Source: Mesonia sp. HuA40
GTDB lineage: Bacteria > Bacteroidota > Bacteroidia > Flavobacteriales > Flavobacteriaceae
Length of the DNA: 64,000 nt
Reading direction: 5' to 3'
NCBI RefSeq assembly: GCF_008017835.1
Contig: NZ_VRLT01000059.1
Coordinates: forward strand, 248,001-312,000
The notes beneath the pieces were generated by a model, which made no database searches, was not told the DNA's origin, and saw only the letters and a list, made by a program, of their open reading frames with translations. A program made the position numbers and the translations under genes. This document shows, piece after piece, positions 46,456 to 53,485 of the stretch. The stretch's first letter is position 1. Each line of letters opens with the position of its first letter.

Positions 46456-46992
46456 ATGAGAATCATTTCAGGAAAGTTTAAAAGTAAACGCATAATAGCT
46501 CCTAAGAAATTGCCTATTCGGCCAACAACCGATATCGCCAAGGAAGGCCTGTTTAATATTTTAAATAATACTTATAATTTTACAGAATTAATCGTACTGG
46601 ATTTATTTGCTGGTTCTGGTAATATTTGCTACGAATTTGCTTCAAGAGGTTGCACTGAAATCACGGCAGTTGACAAGCACTATAATTGCATAAAATTTAT
46701 AAATGAAACCAGCGCATCTTTAGGAATTCAAATTAATACTATAAAAAAAGATGTTTACACCTATTTAAAAATCGCTAATCAAACTTTTGATTTAATTTTT
46801 GCAGACCCTCCTTACGATTTTACCACAGACCAATTTGAAGAACTTGTACAGTTAGTATTTAACCAACAACACCTTAAAGACGAAGGAATACTTATAATAG
46901 AGCATCCAAAAACCACGCCTTTATCAAGTTTAGCCAATTTCATAGACGAACGGCGCTATGGCGGATCTGTTTTTAGTTTTTTTAAAAAATAA
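46456..46992 (+). CDS. rsmD: 16S rRNA (guanine(966)-N2)-methyltransferase
   Basis: RsmD methylates G966 of 16S rRNA using SAM. It has 178 residues. The N-terminal MRIISGKFKSKRI and RPTTDIAKEGLFNIL are family hallmarks. The SAM loop is LDLFAGSGNICYEFASRG and the catalytic motif is FADPPYDF. Its stop codon abuts the 3' end of the RNase P RNA gene on the other strand. The T-rich tail of that RNA's terminator is therefore encoded by the final codons of rsmD (FSFFKK). Confidence 0.95.
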   Translation: MRIISGKFKSKRIIAPKKLPIRPTTDIAKEGLFNILNNTYNFTELIVLDLFAGSGNICYEFASRGCTEITAVDKHYNCIKFINETSASLGIQINTIKKDVYTYLKIANQTFDLIFADPPYDFTTDQFEELVQLVFNQQHLKDEGILIIEHPKTTPLSSLANFIDERRYGGSVFSFFKK

Positions 46993-46993
46993 A

Positions 46994-47290
46994 GTAGGCC
47001 TATAAGCCGGATTCTGTTTTTCTAAAAAGAAAATCTTATCATTTATCTGGAGTTTTTGTTACCAAAAACCTCTAGCTGTCTACCCTCCAACAATGACCGA
47101 GCAAGTCTTAAAGTCGGTTTACATGACATTGCACCGTATAGAGTTTACCTGATTTCACTACAGCATAACCTGTACATTCTTTCTGTTGCACTTGTCCTAA
47201 TTTCACAATTGATGGCCGTTAACCATTATACTGCTCTGTGGTGTCCGGACTTTCCTCTTTTAATAAATTAAAAGCGATAAGACGGCCTAC
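46994..47290 (-). ncRNA. rnpB: RNase P RNA (bacterial class A)
   Basis: The minus strand carries the hallmarks of RNase P RNA, the catalytic RNA that matures tRNA 5' ends. Near its 5' end is GAGGAAAGTCCGGAC (complement of about 47244-47258). The 3' region has ACAGAATCCGGCTTATAGGCC (47016-46996). The terminal P1 helix is formed by GTAGGCC (47290-47284) with GGCCTAC (47000-46994). The length of about 297 bases is short but in range for Bacteroidota. A perfect -7 element lies upstream. An open frame on the plus strand across this region is not a gene. Confidence 0.95.
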
Positions 47291-47297
47291 TTTTTTG

Positions 47298-47412: not shown

Positions 47413-49133
47413 ATGATGGAACATTTTATAGTATCAGCAAGAAAATATAGACCAGAATCTTTTGAGGATGTGGTAGGTCAGCGCGCAATTACCAATACAT
47501 TGCAAAACGCGATTAATAACAACCATTTAGCTCAAGCACTTCTTTTTACAGGGCCTCGAGGTGTTGGTAAAACTACTTGTGCTCGAATTTTAGCAAAGAA
47601 AATCAATCAACAAGCGCAAAACGAAATAGAGCAAGATTTTGCATTTAACATTTTTGAACTTGATGCGGCTTCAAACAACTCTGTTGATGATATTCGTTCT
47701 CTAACCGATCAAGTACGCATTCCCCCTCAAACGGGAAAGTATAAGGTTTATATTATTGATGAGGTACATATGCTTTCTACTAGTGCTTTTAATGCGTTTT
47801 TAAAAACTTTAGAAGAACCTCCAAACCACGCCATTTTTATTTTAGCGACTACCGAAAAACATAAAATTATTCCAACAATTTTATCGCGCTGTCAAATATT
47901 CGATTTTAAGCGAATAAGTGTTTTAGATGCTAAAAATCATTTGGCTAAAATAGCTCAACAAGAAGGAATACAGGCCGAAGATGATGCTTTACACATAATT
48001 GCCCAAAAAGCAGATGGGGCCATGCGCGATGCACTTTCAATATATGATAGGGTTGTTAGTTTTAGTGGTTCAAATTTGACTAGGCAAGCTGTGGCCGAAA
48101 ATTTAAACGTTTTAGACTATGATGTTTATTTTGAGGCAACCACGCACATCCTTAACCAAAATATACCGCAACTTCTTTTGCAATTTAATTCGGTGCTAGC
48201 TAAGGGCTTTGACGGTCAACATTATATTGCAGGTTTAGCTGCCCATTTTAGAGATTTATTTATTTGTAAAGAACAAAGCACAATTGCACTTTTAGAAGTA
48301 GGGGAGCAAATTAAAAAGAAATATTTTGAACAAGCCCAACTAGCGAACACTGATTTTTTAAAAGAAGCAATTGAATTAGCAAATTCCTGTGATCTCAAGT
48401 ATAAGGGAGCGCAGAACCAGAGACTTTTGGTAGAATTATGCTTAATGCAACTCGCTTCGATTACAGAAGGTAAAAAAAAAACGCTGAACCCTACATAATT
48501 CCTGCCAGTAACTTTGTTTCGGTTAAAAAAGAACAAAAACAGGTTATTGAAACACAAGAACACGTCCACGCTAAAGTTGATAATGTAAAAGATCAAAAAA
48601 CACCTTACAAGCAAGATCACAACCCACCACCCGCTTCTAACTTAAATAAAGTTAATAGCAAAACTAAACCAAAATCCGTTTCTGGTTTATCTTTAAAGAG
48701 TATCGACAAGAAAAAGGAACTGAAGCAGAAAAAACTGCAACGAGAAGAAAACCAGCCCAAAAAATTAAATGAAAGTTTTACGGAGAGCGAAGCCCTATTG
48801 GCATGGGATGAATATGTTCTAAAATTAAAAAAGAAAGGGGAAAAAATTCTAGCCTCAATTCTAGAAACCGATAGGCCTAGTCTTAAAGATAAAACCTTAC
48901 ATATCACACTTCCCAACAGTACAATGAAGGTTGAACTAGAAAGAGCACAAGGACCGCTAATTAGTTATATTCGTAATCAGGTAAAAAACTCGTTTGTAGA
49001 TTTATCAATTGCGGTTAATGAAGAGGTCGCCAAAAAATATGCATTCACAAGCCGTGAAAAATTTGACAAATTAGTGCAAAAGAATTCCAACCTAGAAAAA
49101 CTAAGAAAATTGTTTGATTTAGATATAAAATAA
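47413..49133 (+). CDS. dnaX: DNA polymerase III subunit gamma/tau, interrupted by an A10 frameshift site
   Basis: DnaX is the clamp-loader ATPase. The zero frame gives 361 residues ending at TAA 48496-48498, with Walker A GPRGVGKT (47-54), DEVH Walker B and the SRC sensor (LSRCQIF). This is the gamma-like part. An A10 run at 48472-48481 lies in its last codons. The -1 frame continues from there (NAEPYIIPASNF) for about 217 codons to TAA 49131-49133 and encodes the tau tail (LLAWDEYVLKLKKKGEK, then LEKLRKLFDLDIK). A -1 slip or one extra A joins them. The cysteine zinc module usually found between Walker A and Walker B is absent. The likely start is ATG 47416. Confidence 0.9.
48472..48481 (+). 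other. A10 slippage site in dnaX
   Basis: Ten consecutive A bases begin exactly on a codon boundary (codon 354). The zero frame stops five codons later, while the -1 frame is open for the whole tau tail. The purine-rich AGAAGG lies just upstream; no strong downstream hairpin is seen. Confidence 0.7.
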
Positions 49134-49134
49134 T

Positions 49135-49716
49135 ATGTTAGGACTTAAATTACCAACAGACCCAAGATGGGTGAATATAGCCGAAAAAAATATAGAGGAA
49201 ATTTTAATAGATCATGCATTTTGCGAGCAAAAAGCAGCGTCTACGGCTATTTCATTAATTGTTAGTTTTCCTGAATATAAAGATTTAGTTAAAGAAATGA
49301 TAAGTCTAGTTCAAGAAGAAATGAGTCATTTTAAAATGGTTCACGATCTTATTTTAGAACGAGGTTTCGCTTTAGGAAGAGATCGAAAGGACGAATATGT
49401 TATAGAATTACTTAAATTTTTCCCAAAGGGAGGAAGCCGAATAAACCAAATGGTACATCGTTTGCTTTATGCTGCACTAATAGAAGCTAGAAGTTGTGAA
49501 AGATTCAAGTTACTATCTGAGCAATTAAAAGATAAAGATTTGCGCTTATTCTATAAAAAATTAATGATTAGTGAAGCTAACCACTATACTATGTTTTTAA
49601 AATTTGCCAGAAAATATGGTGATTTAGAAACCGTAAATAAAAAGTGGAACGAACTTTTGGAGTATGAAGCAGAAATAATGAAAAAACTTGGTAAAACACA
49701 TAGCATTCATGGATAA
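49135..49716 (+). CDS. miaE: tRNA-(ms2io6A)-hydroxylase MiaE-like protein
   Basis: MiaE is a non-haem diiron monooxygenase that hydroxylates the isopentenyl side chain of ms2i6A at tRNA position 37. It has 193 residues in an all-helical ferritin-like fold. Iron ligands can be placed in EEMSHFKMVH (ExxH), in LIEARSCERF and in ISEANHYTMF (ExxH). It begins one base after the dnaX stop in the tau frame. The tight spacing supports that frame as the translated end of dnaX. Confidence 0.92.
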   Translation: MLGLKLPTDPRWVNIAEKNIEEILIDHAFCEQKAASTAISLIVSFPEYKDLVKEMISLVQEEMSHFKMVHDLILERGFALGRDRKDEYVIELLKFFPKGGSRINQMVHRLLYAALIEARSCERFKLLSEQLKDKDLRLFYKKLMISEANHYTMFLKFARKYGDLETVNKKWNELLEYEAEIMKKLGKTHSIHG

Positions 49717-50333: not shown

Positions 50334-50498
50334 ATGACTAAAAAAACCTCGCTGTTATTATTACTGTTTTGCCTCTTTCTTTTCGTAGCGAATTTATTCA
50401 CTTGGCATATAGAAGGATTCTATTTTAGAGGATTTGGTTTATTAATGATGCTGACTATTTTTTATTTGCGTTTTAGGAAAATACCTCCTAAAGATTAA
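50334..50498 (+). CDS. small two-helix membrane protein
   Basis: A 54-residue protein starting at ATG 50334, seven bases after the methyltransferase stop. It has two hydrophobic helices (LLLLLFCLFLFVANLF and GFGLLMMLTIFYL) joined by a short polar turn, and a basic C-terminus (RFRKIPPKD). The frame extends further upstream to 50226, but that part overlaps the methyltransferase gene and looks like shadow coding. No family is recognised. Its stop overlaps the ppx stop on the other strand by four bases, and no terminator separates them. Confidence 0.65.
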   Translation: MTKKTSLLLLLFCLFLFVANLFTWHIEGFYFRGFGLLMMLTIFYLRFRKIPPKD

Positions 50499-51400
50499 AA
50501 TATAGTTTGTTGCTGTTCTTCATTGTACATATATTTAATAATACCATCGGCTAAACCAATTTTAGGCACATAAACTTTACGTGCCCTACTCCATTTCATA
50601 GTAGACAAATAAATTTTAGTCGCTGGTATTATCACATCGGCACGATCTTCGTTCTGATTAAGCTTAACAATTCGCTCTTCATAGGTTAAGGAGGTTAGCA
50701 GTTGATAATAAGAACTTAAATAAAAGTAACTCAAAGGTTTGCCTATTTTTTTACCACTGCTCTTAAATATATTGTTGATATTACCTCCAGAACCAATTAA
50801 GGAAATCTTTGTATATCCTTTCGTTACATTCTGTATCCATAATTTCATTTCATTCCACAAACTTTCTTCAACTCTGTCATTGAGTAAACGCACTGTTCCT
50901 ATTTTAAAAGATTTTGAAGCCAATTTTTCTCCTTCCGTAAAGAAACTGAGCTCGGTGCTTCCTCCGCCTACGTCGACATACAAGTAGTTTTTATCATTTT
51001 GAATTAGATTTCTCAAGTCTGTAGTGGCAATCATGGCAGCCTCGTGGTCACCATCTATAATTTCGATATCTATACCTGTTTCGGCTTTAATATCTTGTGC
51101 CAATTCTTGGCCGTTTTCTGCATCACGCATCGCCGAAGTAGCACAAGCTTTGTATTGAATAACTTTATGAGATTTCATTAATAATGAAAAGGCTTGCATG
51201 GTGTCACGCATTCTCTTTTTATTTGACTCTGAAACTTTTCCCTTTAAAAAAACATCTTCACCCAAACGAATAGGAACCCGAACCAATGAAGTTTTTTTAA
51301 AGATCGGGGGTTGTTCGTGGGGTTCAGTTATGGTTGCAATAAGCAAACGTACTGCATTTGATCCAATGTCTATTGCGGCGTATTTCTTTATGCTAAGCAT
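50495..51400 (-). CDS. ppx: exopolyphosphatase (Ppx/GppA family)
   Basis: This family hydrolyses polyphosphate or pppGpp. The 301-residue protein has the ASKHA phosphate-binding loops AAIDIGSNAVRLLI near the N-terminus and YVDVGGGSTELSFF in the second domain. It lacks the C-terminal HD-like domain of long E. coli Ppx, so it is the short form. It sits 15 bases after ppk1, which points to polyphosphate as the substrate. It is the last gene of the pyrR-to-ppx run. Confidence 0.95.
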   Translation of the reverse strand: MLSIKKYAAIDIGSNAVRLLIATITEPHEQPPIFKKTSLVRVPIRLGEDVFLKGKVSESNKKRMRDTMQAFSLLMKSHKVIQYKACATSAMRDAENGQELAQDIKAETGIDIEIIDGDHEAAMIATTDLRNLIQNDKNYLYVDVGGGSTELSFFTEGEKLASKSFKIGTVRLLNDRVEESLWNEMKLWIQNVTKGYTKISLIGSGGNINNIFKSSGKKIGKPLSYFYLSSYYQLLTSLTYEERIVKLNQNEDRADVIIPATKIYLSTMKWSRARKVYVPKIGLADGIIKYMYNEEQQQTIF

Positions 51401-51415
51401 AACAATGTAGTTTTT

Positions 51416-53485
51416 TTAATTTATCTTTTCTAAATAGTAGTCATAAGTTGCAAATTGACTGCGTACTGCAGGCTCTTGCTGCGGTACATAAAGGTTGTTT
51501 TCTTGTGCAGAGAATTTCCTGGCTTTTACATTATCTTTCCAACAAATCTCAAAGGTCTCGATAAGCTCCCTCTGAAGGTTTTCTTGATAAACGGGACAAG
51601 AAATTTCAACCCGATAATCTAAATTTCTAGTCATCCAGTCTGCCGACGATATATAAACTTTAGGCAGATTGGCATTATTAAAGATAAATAATCTAGGATG
51701 CTCTAAATATTTATCTACAATACTTATGGCTTCAATATTTTCGCTCATTCCAGGCACTCCAGGAATTAAGCAGCAAATACCTCTAACAATTAATTTAATT
51801 TTAACTCCTTCATTACTGGCTTCGTATAGCTTGTCAATCAACTTATAATCCGATAAACTATTCAGTTTTAATTGAATTCCACTAGGCAAGCCTTGTCTTG
51901 CATTATCTATCTCTTGTTGAATTAACCTTGTGAATGTATTGCGAGAGTAATGCGGTGAAACTATAAGATGTTTGTATTTAGAAACCTTGTAATTGGTTTC
52001 AAAAAAATCGAAGACTTGATTCACCTCTTTTAAGATATCTTGATTACAAGTAAACAGCGTGAAATCTGTATAAATTTTCGCCGTATTTTCATTAAAATTT
52101 CCCGTACTAATAAATCCGTACCTCTTTTTCTTTTTTCCTTCTATACGTTCTACAACACAGGCCTTTGCATGTACTTTTAAACCAGGAACTCCAAATATTA
52201 AATTTACCCCCTCACGCTGCATCTGTTCAGCATAACGGATGTTGTTGGCCTCGTCAAAACGCGCTCTTAACTCAATTGATACTGTTACTTTTTTTCCATT
52301 TTTCACAGCATTTACCAAAGAACTGGCGATATGAGAAACTTCTGCGAGTCTATATATAGTAATTTTAATAGACTTCACCTTAGGATCGATTGCTGCTTCT
52401 CGCAGGAATTTAACCGTATAAGAAAAGGTATGGTAAGGCGTATATTGCAGATAGTCTTTTTGTGCAATAGCTTTTAAAAGACTTTCTTGTAGTGGCAAAT
52501 CTTTAATGGGTAAAGCGGGTACCTTTTTATATAATAAATGTTTCGCTCCTAGGCTAGGAAACTTCATGTAATCCCGCCTATTGTGATAACGCCCCCCAGG
52601 GATAATACTATCTGAATGATCTAAGCCCATTTTAGTAAGTAAATACTTCAGCGTTTCACGCGGTATGGTTTTATCATAAACAAAGCGCACCGGCTCACCT
52701 ATAATCCTATCTTTTATACTGCTTAACAATTTTTCAATATAACTTTTATCTAAATCACCCGCCATATCCAATTCTGCATCGCGGGTAATTTTAATCATAT
52801 GTGCCGTTATACTTTTAAAGTCAAAAATATTCAGTAAATTTTTTAGATTATAACGTATTATATCATCTAGAATAATTAAATATTTCCGGTCGTCATTAGA
52901 AGGCAACTCAACAAATCTATCTATACCCCTAGGAATTTCAATTAGCACATAACGCTTGGTTCTATTTACCTCATCGGGGTTTTTTAAATGCATAGTAATA
53001 GCTAAGTAGGCCGCACTACCTTTTAAACTAGGCATTTCTTCAAGATCATCTAAAATTATTGTAACTAAAGCTGGACTTACCTTTTGTAGAAAATAATCTT
53101 TTAAAAAAGCTGCTTGTTCTTGATTTACTTCGTTTTCACGGATGATAAATATGTTATTGACCTCTAGTTCTTCTTGAATTGCTTTTAATATTTCTAAACT
53201 CTGGGCTTGTTGCTCAATAACTATTTGAGTGATTTGTTTTAATAATTTCTTTGCACTAATTCCGCCTAAAGCTTTCTTGGCTCCTTTACCCGCTTGCATA
53301 ATTCTCTTGACCGTAGCGTAGCGTACTTTGAAAAATTCGTCTAAATTGTTAGAAAAAATACCTAAAAACCTTAATCGCTCAATTAACGGCACACTTTTAT
53401 CGGCCGCTTCTTGCAAAACGCGGGCATTAAATTGAAGCCAACTAATTTCTCTATTGGTGTACTTAAAATCAGTCTTTTTACTCAT
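51416..53485 (-). CDS. ppk1: polyphosphate kinase 1
   Basis: Ppk1 polymerises the gamma-phosphate of ATP into polyphosphate at the inner membrane. It has 689 residues, full length. The N-terminal domain starts YTNREISWLQFNARVLQEA. The phospholipase-D-like catalytic part has the autophosphorylated H439 in KVHAKACVV, followed by GFISTGNFNENTAKIYTDF. The second histidine segment is YLEHPRLFIF. It overlaps sixA by eight bases and precedes ppx, so synthesis and breakdown of polyphosphate are encoded together. Confidence 0.98.
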   Translation of the reverse strand: MSKKTDFKYTNREISWLQFNARVLQEAADKSVPLIERLRFLGIFSNNLDEFFKVRYATVKRIMQAGKGAKKALGGISAKKLLKQITQIVIEQQAQSLEILKAIQEELEVNNIFIIRENEVNQEQAAFLKDYFLQKVSPALVTIILDDLEEMPSLKGSAAYLAITMHLKNPDEVNRTKRYVLIEIPRGIDRFVELPSNDDRKYLIILDDIIRYNLKNLLNIFDFKSITAHMIKITRDAELDMAGDLDKSYIEKLLSSIKDRIIGEPVRFVYDKTIPRETLKYLLTKMGLDHSDSIIPGGRYHNRRDYMKFPSLGAKHLLYKKVPALPIKDLPLQESLLKAIAQKDYLQYTPYHTFSYTVKFLREAAIDPKVKSIKITIYRLAEVSHIASSLVNAVKNGKKVTVSIELRARFDEANNIRYAEQMQREGVNLIFGVPGLKVHAKACVVERIEGKKKKRYGFISTGNFNENTAKIYTDFTLFTCNQDILKEVNQVFDFFETNYKVSKYKHLIVSPHYSRNTFTRLIQQEIDNARQGLPSGIQLKLNSLSDYKLIDKLYEASNEGVKIKLIVRGICCLIPGVPGMSENIEAISIVDKYLEHPRLFIFNNANLPKVYISSADWMTRNLDYRVEISCPVYQENLQRELIETFEICWKDNVKARKFSAQENNLYVPQQEPAVRSQFATYDYYLEKIN

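Follow-up and report, generated by a model that had tools for sequence, protein, structure and literature searches.

Within the window (the whole 64,000-nucleotide stretch of Mesonia sp. HuA40 DNA that was analysed), dnaX is laid out as two open reading frames that meet at a run of ten adenines (Table 1). The gene encodes the DnaX gamma/tau clamp loader, with an N-terminal gamma part and a conserved C-terminal tail. The gamma part matches TIGR02397 (dnaX_nterm) over residues 7-347 (E 2.4e-115) and covers positions 1-367 of NF011531 (E 8.1e-187), and the tail covers positions 414-613 of the 614 in the same model (E 2e-19). Taken separately, the two parts score 622.8 and 69.9 bits against NF011531, both under its full-length cut-off of 685 bits, as is expected for halves. 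An earlier note, made from the sequence alone, had described a zero frame that ends just past the A10 run to give a 361-residue gamma-like product, a -1 frame open from the run onward for about 217 codons as a tau tail, and a next gene starting one base past the tau-frame stop. This anatomy is borne out: the tail amounts to 216 residues and a stop, and a single base separates the end of that stop (49133) from the following ATG (49135). Both non-tau frames are closed near the run, at codons 1 and 4 after it. The first ATG, GTG or TTG in the tail frame lies about 105 codons into the tail, and an internal open reading frame of 111 residues begins at TTG 48798.

Table 1. Features of the dnaX locus and its surroundings (positions in the window).
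Feature	Positions	Strand	Evidence
rsmD open reading frame, convergent with the RNase P RNA	46456-46992		
RNase P RNA, class A	46987-47293	-	RF00010, 224 bits
dnaX, both open reading frames	47413-49133	+	
dnaX zero frame, encoding a 361-aa gamma-like product	47413-48498	+	TIGR02397 and NF011531 matches
A10 run, putatively slippery; first A at codon position 1 (GGT AAA AAA AAA ACG)	48472-48481	+	
Tau tail, -1 frame, 216 aa (coding without stop 48483-49130) plus TAA 49131-49133	48483-49133	+	NF011531 match, dN/dS
TGA closing the third frame (entered when the run loses one base or gains two)	48485-48487	+	
TAA closing the zero frame, within sequence coding YIIPA in the tau frame	48496-48498	+	
MiaE-type tRNA hydroxylase, next gene	49135-49716	+	PF06175, E 1.5e-44
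Ppx/GppA-family exopolyphosphatase and polyphosphate kinase 1 genes	50495-53485	-	

The run is the sole A10 or T10 of the window, which also holds two A9 and two T9 runs. By composition alone such runs should be commoner: 100 dinucleotide shuffles of the window gave a mean of 12.13 A10/T10 runs, every one having at least one, and the window thus lies below chance. What goes beyond chance is conservation, since exactly ten adenines stand at the same codon site of dnaX in 16 of the 16 genus genomes searched, one genome per species. The earlier note had proposed looking at this site in close relatives, and the comparison shows the split gene to be shared by the window's genome and two other species (gamma identity 99% and 95%). 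In the 13 remaining genomes, all of other species with a gamma part 80-81% identical, dnaX is uninterrupted and its zero frame is that of tau; the run is read there as GGA GAA AAA AAA AAN in 11 and GGC CAA AAA AAA AAG in 2. Tau is thus contained in one frame in 13 of 16 genomes because the phase of the A10, and not its length, differs.

The run is not peculiar to the genus. An even draw of the phylum comprised 148 genomes at least 90% complete, dnaX was found in 146, and the site was taken from all of these, the run being scored as the longest A-run in the 280-nt stretch that ends the gamma part. In 108 of the 146 genes it is A9-A11 (A9 in 38, A10 in 63, A11 in 7), in 37 it is at most A7 (15 of them without even a run of four), and in none is it A8, a bimodal distribution. 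The window's own class has A9-A11 in 36 of 37 genes. Outside the window's family the position of the run differs by as much as about 100 nt; in L236, L249, L261 and L270 it lies more than 70 nt further on. Elsewhere in the 146 census genes no run of nine or more occurs, either in the 150,360 nt of gamma-coding sequence upstream or in the 69,171 nt that follow the site window. Of ten loci from a GC-rich group, nine have A10 and one has A9, although AAA makes up only 26% of the lysine codons elsewhere in the seven loci counted (GC 0.58). Genes with neither an A-run of at least four nor an interruption of tau include L224, L230, L238, L251, L256-L258, L260 and L265 among others; L239 of the census is likewise intact.

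Split open reading frames accompany the long runs: of the genes that could be scored, 44 of 107 with a long run are split and 0 of 37 with a short one (Fisher 1.5e-7, a value that is too small for rows that are related); L244, which is cut before the site, and L216, whose tail runs off its contig, are left out of this table. The wrong frames are also closed sooner next to a long run: whichever non-tau frame stays open longer ends at a median of 4.5 codons, and within 7 codons in 88 of 108 genes, versus a median of 34.5 codons, and 4 of 22 within 7, next to A4-A7. Exceptions are 20 long-run genes with one frame open beyond 7 codons, for as many as 86 codons in L187. This last locus belongs to the same family of the window's class as L201, which has an intact gene with A7 where L187 has A9, and the slippage site may be decaying in that family.

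The frame in which the tail lies was classified in a larger set of 192 dnaX loci, reduced to 182 by removing 4 whose match ended early (L190, L193, L194 and L206, with A9-A10, three split and one intact) and 6 with identical stretches; the stretch shared by L010 and L060 is identical over 660 nt, and if this marks them as one species, the window's genus takes in Haloflavibacter putidus. Part of the set was picked for its splits (18 of the 19 loci from one batch and 8 of the others from a second), and therefore its run lengths and stops are representative and its class fractions are not. L120 is placed in class 0 by default, the tail of L142 runs off its contig, and L056 is cut. Nine or more adenines are present in 181 of the 182 distinct genes, and both non-tau frames are shut within 7 codons in 94.5%, versus 25% and 21% at random positions; elsewhere in the same genes, 182,715 nt of gamma sequence contain 1 run of A9 or more and 23 of A8 or more, and 86,325 nt of tail contain 3 of A9 or more. 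To pass from the upstream frame into the tau tail, no shift is needed in 126 genes, one extra nucleotide in 47, and one fewer or two extra in 9 (the -1/+2 class: L098, L116, L143, L146, L147, L152, L155, L158 and L162). Among the 107 scorable census genes with A9 or more, the same classes number 63, 43 and 1.

Parsimony on a quick protein tree counts 31 class changes as built, and 29, 26 and 19 when branches with SH-aLRT below 80, 90 and 95 are collapsed; changes between split and intact alone number 29 as built and 26, 21 and 14 after the same collapses. By eye, from comparison with neighbours, the switch was made in three ways: in the window's clade the phase altered ahead of the run, in L072 and L129, for example, a base was lost after it, and in L047 and L098 the run itself changed in length. 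Two Flavobacterium loci, L129 and L131, are split. The reverse arrangement is one state of a switching system, and the earlier contrast between it and the arrangement of Thermus holds in part: the window does have the reverse arrangement, but not as a fixed alternative, both being found around the same A10 within the genus. Two further ideas were set aside. The seeming preference of the -1/+2 class for longer runs (6 of 9 have A11 or more) is trivial, in that one extra A alone would put an intact A10 gene there, and it carries no information on the rate of slippage. Full neutrality of the three frames is not borne out, their classes being unequal in both samples.

We propose that a programmed slippage site, on whose A10 RNA polymerase slips, lets dnaX yield both clamp-loader subunits, and we put the probability of this reading at about 0.78. 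Slippage would produce mRNAs with varying numbers of adenines. Those with 10 (or 10+3n) would be read to the nearby TAA and give the 361-residue gamma; those with 11 (or 8) would join the tail frame and give tau; and those with 9 or 12 would meet the TGA immediately and give another gamma-length product. The slipped mRNAs would be spread over all frames, and both products would arise whatever the frame of the template. This could explain why the template frame has been switched repeatedly and the run length and nearby stops have been kept, because slippage would supply both products regardless. The proposal of the earlier note that gamma lies in the zero frame and tau would be reached by slippage on the A10, the reverse of E. 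coli, fits these data. What the analysis shows is the anatomy of the locus, its conservation, shifts in both directions, purifying selection on the tail and the lack of a consistent structure downstream; the occurrence of slippage in this species, its transcriptional nature and the proportions of gamma and tau are inferred.

The main competitor is programmed -1 ribosomal frameshifting on the run, with faithful transcripts and tau made by the shifted ribosomes. An A_AAA_AAA heptamer stands in phase in the window (any A10 at this phase contains one), A_AAA_AAG is found in 7 of the 13 intact genus genomes, and the only lysine tRNA seen in the window's genome is tRNA-Lys(UUU), accounting for 2 of 38 tRNAs in a draft that is incomplete for tRNAs (no tRNA-Ile is seen). 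A sole tRNA-Lys has been linked with ribosomal slipping of the E. coli type (PMC5009743). In the window, the 60 nt beginning 3 nt past the run fold with a z of +0.67, and no stem-loop of the E. coli type was found there. Across 108 long-run genes no consistent downstream RNA structure emerges: the mean z is -0.29 versus -0.13 for gamma controls (p 0.36), slightly stronger than tail controls (0.05, p 0.04), with a few strong folds (z below -2 in 10% of the genes, and -3.4 in L174).

According to section 10 of PMC3711429, mixed shift directions among orthologues point to transcriptional realignment and a single direction to ribosomal frameshifting. The orthologues compared here do not keep to one direction: 47 need +1 nt to reach the tail, whereas nine need -1/+2 nt, a shift the other way on the same run. 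By that rule, therefore, the site would be transcriptional. The bimodal run length also speaks against frameshifting, and slippage by E. coli RNA polymerase is reported to be undetectable on runs shorter than eight adenines (PMC6260861). Since the relatives need different slips and share no consistent structure, the sequences favour Thermus-type transcriptional slippage, and we regard -1 ribosomal frameshifting as rather unlikely. As at a Thermus-type site, A9 or more is kept in relatives (16/16 in the genus, 108/146 in the phylum) and stops are close by; a zero frame that encodes tau is found in 13 of the 16 genus genomes and not in the window. Against transcriptional slippage we would count the rarity of the -1/+2 class, with 9 genes of 182 and a single one among the 107 of the census; the frames are therefore not equivalent.

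Another observation that counts against polymerase slippage, in that it resembles a frameshift stimulator, is a GGAG next to the run in many relatives. It was surveyed in the 151 loci whose gamma part shares at least 70% identity with that of the window. Where the run starts at the second position of a codon, the preceding glycine codon is GGA in 104 of 110 cases, compared with 33% of all gamma-part glycines in these loci. Of 14 further glycine columns, compared across 93 loci of equal length, none exceeds 58% in uniformity, and glycine before glutamate elsewhere is GGA in 68 of 182 cases in these genes and in 19 of 58 in the open reading frames of the window. The excess over these controls indicates that GGAG is kept at a synonymous site, although binomial values from this survey come out too small because the loci are related. 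It abuts the run in 83 of 111 intact genes and in 16 of 31 and 4 of 9 genes of the two split classes; L008, L052 and L129 are examples. As support for frameshifting the motif is weakened by its absence before the run in the window's clade, and by the report that ribosomes of Bacteroidia do not recognise Shine-Dalgarno sequences (PMC9976891), because of which a stimulator like that of E. coli would be unlikely. Our guess would be a context effect at the level of the polymerase; bases adjoining A5/T5 reporters have been reported to alter slippage, in work comparing the RNA polymerases of T7 and E. coli (PMC6260861).

We consider it improbable that the split reflects a real indel by which tau was lost, leaving gamma alone or a tail expressed separately from an internal start. 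The 111-residue frame from TTG 48798 could serve such a start, but the tail is conserved over all 216 codons from the run, a long way upstream of the first start codon. Compared with L006, it aligns with no gap at a dN/dS of 0.04 (dS 0.46), next to 0.05 for the gamma part, and tau is therefore still under selection in the split clade, which rules out a pseudogene; in other split pairs the tail gives 0.12-0.24 in seven and is not computable in two. The same kind of split recurs across the phylum, in 44 of the 107 long-run genes that could be scored, which also speaks against a loss. The dropping of one A in sequencing or assembly, to which the earlier note had given first place among the alternatives, can be discarded, for although homopolymers are error-prone and the contig of L120 (Winogradskyella immobilis) breaks off inside the run (A13) at this very site, the same split, in the same frame and with a conserved tail, is present in diverged sequence in two congeneric species, and all 16 genus genomes have A10, the 13 intact ones included, with the phase differing outside the run.

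Polymerase slippage on the A10 can be extended, tentatively and with less than even confidence, to the phylum at large. Bacteroidota dnaX might be frame-agnostic: slippage on A9-A11 would fill all frames, the frame of the DNA would be only weakly selected, with at least 19 switches in the sampled genes, run length and the two flanking stops would be held, and in the window's family the synonymously conserved GGAG would tune slippage by the polymerase.

The two-ORF dnaX with A10 is itself already known, and the comparative pattern is the addition made here. A GeneTack survey of 2013 described 17 such genes from 12 genera, nine of them with A10, and proposed transcriptional realignment; none of the 17 was annotated, according to its text (PMC3711429). 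The window resembles these genes in its gamma-length open reading frame, its -1-type transition to tau and its A10 junction, and some species of the survey may coincide with genomes sampled here. The text of the survey treats split genes with -1 shifts only, whereas here intact relatives and splits of the other direction are found as well (PMC3711429). In Thermus thermophilus dnaX, both products come from slipped mRNAs, as proposed for the window; the run, A9 there, is likewise of about the length of the RNA-DNA hybrid and has close stops in both frames, but the zero frame encodes tau in Thermus and gamma in the window (PMC1088944, PMC5009743). The arrangement of Thermus occurs in 126 of the 182 genes sampled, a set partly chosen for splits. 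With E. coli dnaX the window shares the principle of one gene and two products, gamma being a truncated tau; unlike E. coli, where A_AAA_AAG is accompanied by stimulators, it has an A10, a reversed order of products and no downstream structure that we could find (PMC5009743). Reversal of roles through one nucleotide is noted in PMC5009743. In the open-licence literature we found no report of a phylum-wide run, of repeated switching or both split directions in dnaX, or of the GGAG.

In E. coli, the standing of gamma alongside tau was long a matter of controversy (PMC5009743). A putative slippage site that is kept over much of a phylum, GC-rich genomes included, through many switches and with the wrong frames mostly closed, would argue, on evolutionary grounds, for the importance of both products. 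It would also offer a natural case in which the reading frame of an essential gene drifts at the level of DNA, with close relatives in opposite arrangements available for direct comparison. Split dnaX genes are prone to be annotated as truncated.

As to the neighbourhood, the RNase P RNA lies between rsmD and dnaX and overlaps the 3' end of the rsmD open reading frame by six bases, and the exopolyphosphatase and polyphosphate kinase 1 genes adjoin.
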